Source: Bacteroidetes bacterium RIFCSPLOWO2_12_FULL_35_15
GTDB lineage: Bacteria; Bacteroidota; Bacteroidia; 2-12-FULL-35-15
Direction of reading: 5' to 3'
Assembly: GCA_001769385.1 (NCBI GenBank)
Contig: MEPB01000038.1
Location: 62,001-126,000 of the forward strand
DNA: 64,000 nt
Shown in pieces: positions 2,387-30,601 of the stretch; positions within the stretch are counted from its first letter, which is position 1, and each line of letters starts with the position of its first letter. Under the pieces are notes generated by a model that saw only the letters and a program-made list of their open reading frames with translations, made no database searches and had not been told where the DNA came from. A program made the position numbers and the translations under genes.

Positions 2387-2857
2387 TTAATTCAATTTCG
2401 CCAAGACATCTTTGATTGCCATAAAATCCGGTTGTTGTCCTGCATCTTCCAGCACTTCAGCATAACGAACCACTCCCTCTTTATCAATTACAAATGCAGA
2501 GCGCTTTGAAACACCTTTCATTCCCAAAACAAACTCTTCATACAATGCTCCATAAGCTGCTGAAGCCTCTTTATTAAAATCCGATAATAAAGGGAAATTT
2601 AAATTTTGTTCCCCTTTGAATTTCCCTAATGTAAAAAGAGAATCTACAGAAATAGCAAGCACTTGTGCATTTGCAGTATTATAACTTGCAATATCATCGC
2701 GGGTAGCACATAATTCAGCAGTACACGTTCCGGTAAATGCTAAAGGGAAAAATAATACTACTACATTTTTGCCATTGAATTCTGCTACTGAAACAGCTTT
2801 TTTATCCGTATCATTTAGGGTAAATAATGGCGCTTTTTGGCCTACTTCTATTTTCAT
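2387..2857 (-). CDS. AhpE-type peroxiredoxin
   Basis: A cytoplasmic thiol peroxidase of 156 residues that reduces hydrogen peroxide or organic hydroperoxides. It has the AhpC/TSA thioredoxin fold. The active-site segment FPLAFTGTCTAELC puts the peroxidatic cysteine at C45 within the P-x3-T-x2-C motif, and a second cysteine at C50. The FPLAFTG form resembles AhpE-like 1-Cys peroxiredoxins rather than the classic VCPTE type. There is no signal peptide. It is divergent from a second, 2-Cys peroxiredoxin at 3010, and the shared 150-bp intergenic region holds one palindrome centred between the two promoters, so the two genes are probably co-regulated. The sequence does not show which electron donor it uses. 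Confidence 0.9.
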   Translation of the reverse strand: MKIEVGQKAPLFTLNDTDKKAVSVAEFNGKNVVVLFFPLAFTGTCTAELCATRDDIASYNTANAQVLAISVDSLFTLGKFKGEQNLNFPLLSDFNKEASAAYGALYEEFVLGMKGVSKRSAFVIDKEGVVRYAEVLEDAGQQPDFMAIKDVLAKLN

Positions 2858-2900: not shown

Positions 2901-2908
2901 CAAAGGTA
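2901..2908 (-). promoter_or_regulatory. -7 promoter element (TACCTTTG) of AhpE-like gene
   Basis: Read on the minus strand this is TACCTTTG, a perfect TAnnTTTG. Its T lies 27.5 bases from the centre of the palindrome at 2928-2943. No good -33 TTTG is present, which fits an activator-dependent promoter. Confidence 0.55.
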
Positions 2909-2927
2909 AATATTGTTTGCGAAAAAA

Positions 2928-2943
2928 CATGATTAATATCATG
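2928..2943. promoter_or_regulatory. FNR/CRP-like palindrome between divergent peroxiredoxins
   Basis: CATGAT-TAAT-ATCATG is a 6-bp inverted repeat with a 4-base spacer. Its core ATGAT-N4-ATCAT resembles the FNR site TTGAT-N4-ATCAA. Its centre (2935.5) is exactly midway between the minus-strand -7 box (2908) and the plus-strand -7-like box (2963). That puts it near -40 for both start sites, the position used by class II activators. A similar site lies at 30586-30601. Confidence 0.5.
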
Positions 2944-2962
2944 ATATTATCCGCACTTTTTG

Positions 2963-2970
2963 TAACTTCG
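2963..2970 (+). promoter_or_regulatory. -7-like element (TAACTTCG) of AhpC-type gene
   Basis: TAACTTCG differs from TAnnTTTG at one base. It lies 40 bases upstream of the peroxiredoxin start and mirrors the box at 2901-2908 around the central palindrome. Confidence 0.45.
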
Positions 2971-3009: not shown

Positions 3010-3639
3010 ATGTCACTAGTAGGAAAAAAAGCACCTTCATTTAAGGCGCAAGCAGTAGTAAACGGAGGAGAATTTGTAGAAAATTTTTCTCTTGATCAAT
3101 ACATTGGAAAAAAACATGTGATCATGTTTTTCTATCCTAAAGATTTCACATTTGTTTGTCCAACCGAATTACATGCATTTCAGGAGAAATTAGCCGAATT
3201 TGAAAAACGCAATGTTGCTGTTGTAGCTTGCTCTACAGATACAGAACAATCACACTGGGGATGGTTACAACAGCCAAAAAACCAAGGTGGAATTCAAGGA
3301 GTAAAATACCCGATTGTAGCAGATACAACAAAGATTATCTCCATGAATTTTGATGTTTTATTTGGCGAATATCAAGTGGATGAAACGGATACTTTGATTG
3401 CAAACGGACCAATGATCGCATACAGAGGGTTGTATCTAATTGATAAAAACGGAATTGTTCGTCATCAGTTGATTAACGACCTACCATTAGGACGAAGCGT
3501 AGATGAAGCATTACGCATGGTGGATGCTTTACAGTTTTTCGAAGAAAACGGTGAAGTATGTCCTGCAAACTGGCAAAAAGGTGATGCCGCCATGAAAGCT
3601 ACTCATGATGGTGTTGCAAATTATTTAGCTAAACACTAA
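3010..3639 (+). CDS. Typical 2-Cys peroxiredoxin (AhpC/Prx1 type)
   Basis: A 209-residue cytoplasmic peroxidase of the AhpC/Prx1 group. The peroxidatic cysteine is C50 in DFTFVCPTELHAF. The resolving cysteine is C184 in EVCPANW near the C-terminus, so both halves of the 2-Cys disulfide cycle are present. HWGW and GLYLIDKNGIVRH are further family landmarks. The length and VCP motifs fit the thioredoxin- or AhpF-dependent branch; no ahpF is adjacent. It is transcribed away from the AhpE-like peroxiredoxin across a shared regulatory palindrome. A strong hairpin at 3782-3813 lies downstream. Confidence 0.93.
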   Translation: MSLVGKKAPSFKAQAVVNGGEFVENFSLDQYIGKKHVIMFFYPKDFTFVCPTELHAFQEKLAEFEKRNVAVVACSTDTEQSHWGWLQQPKNQGGIQGVKYPIVADTTKIISMNFDVLFGEYQVDETDTLIANGPMIAYRGLYLIDKNGIVRHQLINDLPLGRSVDEALRMVDALQFFEENGEVCPANWQKGDAAMKATHDGVANYLAKH

Positions 3640-30585: not shown

Positions 30586-30601
30586 GATGATATTAATCAT
30601 C
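30586..30601. promoter_or_regulatory. FNR/CRP-like palindrome upstream of the response regulator
   Basis: GATGAT-ATTA-ATCATC shares the core ATGAT-N4-ATCAT with the site at 2928-2943. Its centre is 26.5 bases from the first T of the -7-like box TATTTATG (30620-30627), almost the same spacing as at the peroxiredoxin promoters. Confidence 0.45.

Follow-up and report, generated by a model that had tools for sequence, protein, structure and literature searches.

The window, by which we mean the whole 64-kb stretch of DNA analysed, contains two divergently transcribed peroxiredoxin genes, and the features on which our analysis rests are as follows.

2387–2857, minus strand: peroxiredoxin of 156 aa, AhpC/TSA-Redoxin fold (Pfam AhpC-TSA 1.4e-35, Redoxin 1e-25)
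2901–2908, minus strand: -7 box TACCTTTG of the 156-aa peroxiredoxin promoter, from sequence; predicted start 2896
2912–2951, no strand: block conserved with the nearest relative compared (genome G023), 39/40 identical against 73/115 (63%) in the other intergenic columns, its limits set after the alignment had been viewed
2929–2942, no strand: FNR-type palindrome ATGAT-TAAT-ATCAT, centre 2935.5, sequence ATGATTAATATCAT
2934–2949, no strand: overlapping perfect 16-bp palindrome TAATATCATGATATTA, found as overlapping arms; a rival site
2963–2970, plus strand: -7 box TAACTTCG of the 209-aa peroxiredoxin promoter, from sequence; predicted start 2975
3010–3639, plus strand: typical 2-Cys peroxiredoxin (AhpC-like) of 209 aa (Pfam AhpC-TSA 1.3e-30, 1-cysPrx_C 1.2e-12)
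30587–30600, no strand: the 14-mer of 2929–2942 again, as its reverse complement, with flanking genes for a KaiC-like ATPase and a response regulator

The 156-aa protein presumably belongs to the Bcp/PrxQ- or AhpE-like subclass, and the 209-aa protein is matched in relatives at 82–96% identity. The divergent arrangement is widespread in the phylum, being found at 40 of the 80 distinct loci that were left from 107 once ten without a recognised start had been removed and duplicates merged. By eye we also noticed TTGTTAAACC at 2984–2993, in the leader of the 209-aa peroxiredoxin, which recurs in the leaders of most relatives, sometimes shortened to AAACC or AACC, and is a possible conserved leader element.

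With a TGA-N6-TCA core, 5-bp arms and a 4-bp spacer, ATGATTAATATCAT has the layout of an FNR-type operator. A first-pass annotation had placed ATGAT-N4-ATCAT, centred at 2935.5, exactly midway between the two -7 boxes, and this proved correct: the upstream edges of the boxes lie at 2908 and 2963, their midpoint is 2935.5, and each box begins 27.5 bp from the palindrome centre. Its estimate of about -40 from each start also held, with the centre falling at -39.5 for both, where the starts are predictions calculated from the boxes and the boxes are placed at -12 to -5, as given for the mapped -7 box of Flavobacterium psychrophilum in the accessible portion of the source (PMC9723704). The plus-strand box TAACTTCG differs from TAnnTTTG by one base. 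As had likewise been claimed, neither peroxiredoxin promoter has a TTTG at the position expected for a -33 element relative to the -7 box, a spacing taken from general knowledge, and an alignment-anchored search of the 40 divergent loci, in which the automatic choice of -7 box was wrong in several rows, found no clear -33 box common to them. The overlapping 16-bp palindrome was absent from the earlier annotation.

A chance palindrome would be in keeping with the AT-rich spacer and with the lack of the site in most relatives, yet the window has two matches to ATGAT-N4-ATCAT where shuffles give 0.22 each, and the 5.39-Mb genome has 33, compared with four for the reversed palindrome. A mechanical gene call puts 24 of the 33 genome sites between genes; a first-order model built on window composition expected 1.96 there and 17.7 in coding sequence, so all of the excess is intergenic (binomial 2e-14, with ~14% of the window intergenic). 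The exact 14-mer ATGATTAATATCAT, spacer included, makes up six of the 33, and in a matrix built from the 24 intergenic sites, itself included, the palindrome at 2929–2942 scores 21.9 bits, the highest in the window, with the runner-up at 13.5. Across 16 genomes of the genus the pattern outnumbers its reversed control in 15 and ties with it in G035. The local conservation (39/40 against 63%) likewise tells against chance, which we rate the least probable of the explanations weighed here; the palindrome is embedded in an evident regulon. At the second copy, 30587–30600, neither gene-facing side has a TAnnTT[T/C]G box within 75 bp.

Using Pfam we scanned 39 proteins flanking the genome sites, plus the two peroxiredoxins. 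The site-adjacent genes include complex I targets (a fused 24K/51K protein and two chain-3 NADH dehydrogenase subunits), a 4Fe-4S ferredoxin with two pyruvate/2-oxoacid ferredoxin oxidoreductases, a transketolase-type E1 component and a dehydrogenase E1 component, a glycine cleavage P protein and a 3-hydroxyacyl-CoA dehydrogenase. Also site-adjacent are a cytochrome c with a COX2 domain, COX1 and a multihaem-type cytochrome c, PAS proteins including a histidine kinase, a flavin-ferredoxin reductase, a disulphide isomerase of the bacilliredoxin kind, a DUF2249/ScdA_N/hemerythrin protein and, at site L062, the Crp/Fnr protein L066. Neighbours without a Pfam match or without an evident redox role include those at L002, L015 and L048. 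The genome scan upstream of stress genes that the first-pass annotation had proposed thus returned a coherent intergenic set, but its targets are mostly genes of respiration and central carbon metabolism, not general stress genes.

Two further arrangements were observed in this genome. A site at 1501–1514 of L009 overlaps the 3' end of the upstream gene, and so stands outside the 24 intergenic sites, and lies 30.5 bp ahead of a perfect -7 box of the DUF2249/ScdA_N/hemerythrin gene, a kind of gene connected with the repair of nitric-oxide damage. On contig C52, a receiver-Crp fusion (L063) is encoded close to the PAS histidine kinase, with the L052 site between the kinase and the cytochrome c/COX2 gene; many genomes of the genus have matches with open frames of ~350–370 aa, the size of receiver-Crp fusions.

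We counted 11 Crp HTH genes in the genome (PF13545 matches) and one Fur-family gene; three Crp/Fnr-family genes lie within ~2.5 kb at C26:26479-28994. There were no matches to the LysR substrate domain PF03466 in the genome, which is given as 99.4% complete, with 10 of 14 control genomes positive, and an OxyR-like regulator was dropped as a candidate because no LysR-type protein was found in the assembly. The candidate regulators L066 and L065 both combine a cyclic-nucleotide-type sensor domain with a Crp HTH (by Pfam for L066 and by PF13545 matches), and FNR structures are among their best sequence matches. The [4Fe-4S] cysteines of FNR are C20, C23, C29 and C122; L066 aligns three of the four, the equivalent of C29 being missing, and L065 has four cysteines, C-x2-C-x8-C plus an equivalent of C122, with altered spacing.

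Palindromes were also found ahead of the regulator genes themselves: L066 has ATGATTTATATCAT 105 bp upstream of its start, and ATGAGTAATATCAT and ATGATTCATGTCAT lie upstream of L065 and L073, respectively. RTGA-N6-TCAY is present within 300 bp upstream of 5/11 Crp/Fnr genes in this genome and within 260 bp upstream of 12/14 FNR-like genes of the genus (the 15 higher-similarity loci of 30, own gene and paralogues counted, minus L156 at a contig edge), where 0.31 were expected and the maximum in 500 simulated sets was three. To judge from these upstream sequences, this looks like self-regulation, which would tie the motif to the FNR-like clade. Among 36 genomes, motif density showed a weak trend with presence of an L066-like gene (p 0.02), with G032 and G022 as exceptions.

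The peroxiredoxin of G023 is 96% identical to that of the window, and 25/80 fourfold sites differ between the two genes. G023 has 24 ATGAT-N4-ATCAT sites, and when all of these were compared, 12 of our 24 intergenic sites had the exact pattern in G023 no more than 38 bp away from the syntenic position, several with changed spacers (L004, L006, L008, L010, L011, L012, L049, L050, L051, L058, L060 and L062). To these can be added, as a thirteenth, the peroxiredoxin site, where one arm has a substitution, ATCAT to GTCAT. The G023 counterpart of the minus-strand -7 box is TAACTTTG, which is also found at the aligned place of the plus-strand box, and in both genomes the two boxes are equidistant from the palindrome, the alignment being gap-free between the boxes and gapped in the flanks.

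This substitution bears on whether a different regulator, of Fur/PerR type or another dimer, might instead occupy the 16-bp palindrome at 2934–2949. That palindrome is perfect, the genome has its one Fur-family gene, and the conserved block 2912–2951 is broader than the 14-bp site, but the change in G023 disrupts the 16-bp palindrome and leaves an RTGAY-N4-RTCAY site. The 14-mer, moreover, is part of a genome-wide family (the genome-wide count having been made for the 14-mer pattern), and OxyR-like proteins are ruled out to the extent that the assembly covers the genome; we consider a regulator of this kind very unlikely.

Elsewhere in the phylum the palindrome is rare at this locus. It was present in 2/40 divergent peroxiredoxin loci when a stricter motif was used, and in 2/78 upstream regions (the 107 minus 12 without a recognised start, with duplicates merged and those with <100 bp upstream left out), in each case only in the window and G023, and it is missing at this locus in G015, G033, G024 and G028, which retain a closer L066-like gene. 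Conservation of the site in relatives, whose absence the first-pass annotation had named as one refuting outcome, is seen in G023, with exact spacing, but not in the 38/40 divergent loci without it, which points to a recent gain and not to a general feature of the peroxiredoxin pair. From this comparison the gene pair appears to be old and the site a recent arrival, constrained in both of the genomes that bear it. By eye, several relatives without the palindrome (L035, L022, L026, L025, L033 and L038) have the -7 box of the small peroxiredoxin within an inverted repeat, AAACAAT-N10/11-ATTGTTT, with long perfect arms in L035; the window retains only the ATTGTTT arm, at 2912–2918.

Across the genome, TAnnTT[T/C]G boxes on the gene-facing sides of our own intergenic sites were found at 9/374 positions 22–33 bp from the site centre against 6/1850 elsewhere (Fisher 2e-4), in a distance window picked after a first look at the data and with two of the nine cases coming from the peroxiredoxin site itself. 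The most frequent distance from box to centre was 29.5 bp, corresponding to -41.5; in Escherichia coli, 19/23 FNR-activated promoters with known starts carry the site at -41.5 ± 4, according to the accessible text of PMC3688515. The same test in G023, covering 21 of its 24 sites with three near contig edges left out, was not significant (2/198 vs 7/1000, p 0.45). Some other genome sites lie 13–17 bp from a -7 box, a distance that would be compatible with repression.

These distances raise the alternative that the FNR-type site serves one promoter only, or represses one or both, with the exact midpoint being partly accidental. At 13.5–16.5 bp from the -7 boxes, as at those other sites of the same genome, a bound dimer would hinder polymerase, and two polymerases could hardly occupy both peroxiredoxin promoters together. 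Control of both promoters is, besides, something that we infer solely from geometry. That geometry includes, however, two boxes equidistant from the palindrome in two genomes, gap-free between them while the flanks are gapped, and the absence of a -33 element from both promoters, so that we judge service of a single promoter, or repression, to be unlikely.

We consider it probable that the palindrome is an operator for an FNR-type Crp/Fnr dimer, located at about -39.5 of both promoters in a class II position and placing both peroxidases in a larger FNR-like regulon, and class II activation is the likely mode of action. The earlier proposal that one FNR/CRP-like regulator controls both peroxidases is supported in part: the FNR/CRP type is backed by the genome scan and the spacing in G023, and the geometry alone speaks for joint control. 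One FNR-type dimer would sit on 2929–2942, at about -39.5 of each divergent promoter, and would substitute for the missing -33 contacts, recruiting RNA polymerase in either direction. To judge from polymerase footprints, both promoters could hardly be occupied simultaneously; the polymerases would compete for this stretch, and transcription may then switch between one peroxidase and the other. The regulon would take in complex I, ferredoxin-linked 2-oxoacid oxidoreductases, a pyruvate-dehydrogenase-type E1, a terminal oxidase, cytochromes, the bacilliredoxin-like protein and the regulator itself. Judging solely from these associated genes, the regulator probably responds to low oxygen, redox state or nitric oxide, and readiness for re-aeration is one conceivable benefit of having peroxidases raised by a low-oxygen regulator.

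In kind the arrangement is ordinary, being a probable FNR-type site in a predicted class II position, and what is unusual is the exact two-way placement and the recent origin. El-Robh and Busby in 2002 reportedly had a single CRP dimer activate two divergent promoters in E. coli, which is alike in having one site for two opposite promoters; that system was engineered and used CRP, whereas the peroxiredoxin arrangement is natural and predicted only. The tpx gene of E. coli, encoding a thiol peroxidase under Fnr/ArcA control, is a comparable link between a thiol peroxidase and oxygen regulators, although the peroxidase, the phylum and the site layout all differ. The E. coli FNR regulon shares with ours the 5-bp arms, 4-bp spacer and TGA/TCA cores, a position near -41.5, predicted in our case, and targets in respiration and central carbon metabolism. 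It differs in its consensus, given as TTGAT-N4-ATCAA in the accessible text of PMC3688515, against ATGAT-N4-ATCAT here, and our system has Bacteroidota -7 boxes, one site predicted to serve two promoters, and peroxiredoxin genes as putative targets. The canonical TTGAT arm is not found in the palindrome, and the FNR-like genes of the genus likewise have ATGA-type arms upstream, so we describe this as a predicted FNR-like site and not as an FNR site of the E. coli consensus. Within the Bacteroidota, Porphyromonas gingivalis has the superfamily members HcpR, PgRsp and CrpPg, of which PgRsp is linked to redox sensing and HcpR responds to nitrosative stress, and the accessible text of the paper names no TTGAT-like motif and describes no peroxiredoxin link (PMC12040651). 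For Bacteroidota, the literature that we searched, with subscription papers mostly beyond reach, yielded no description of the ATGAT-N4-ATCAT motif or of peroxiredoxins controlled in this way, and the literal string ATGATNNNNATCAT did not occur in the literature text searched.

More tentatively, and with rather more doubt than confidence, we suggest that an old divergent gene pair may have come under an FNR-like regulon by way of one new, perfectly centred class II site, at which the dimer would act as a two-way, mutually exclusive switch coupling peroxide defence to respiratory state in place of OxyR. The analysis supplies a testable FNR-like regulon, comprising a motif, targets and candidate regulators, for a genus of Bacteroidota in which the named relatives found are metagenome assemblies, and it concerns a phylum for which we found little in the literature on how activators are positioned at TAnnTTTG promoters. 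In a genome where no LysR-type regulator was found, the peroxiredoxin site would be one short operator able to rewire two conserved antioxidant genes together.
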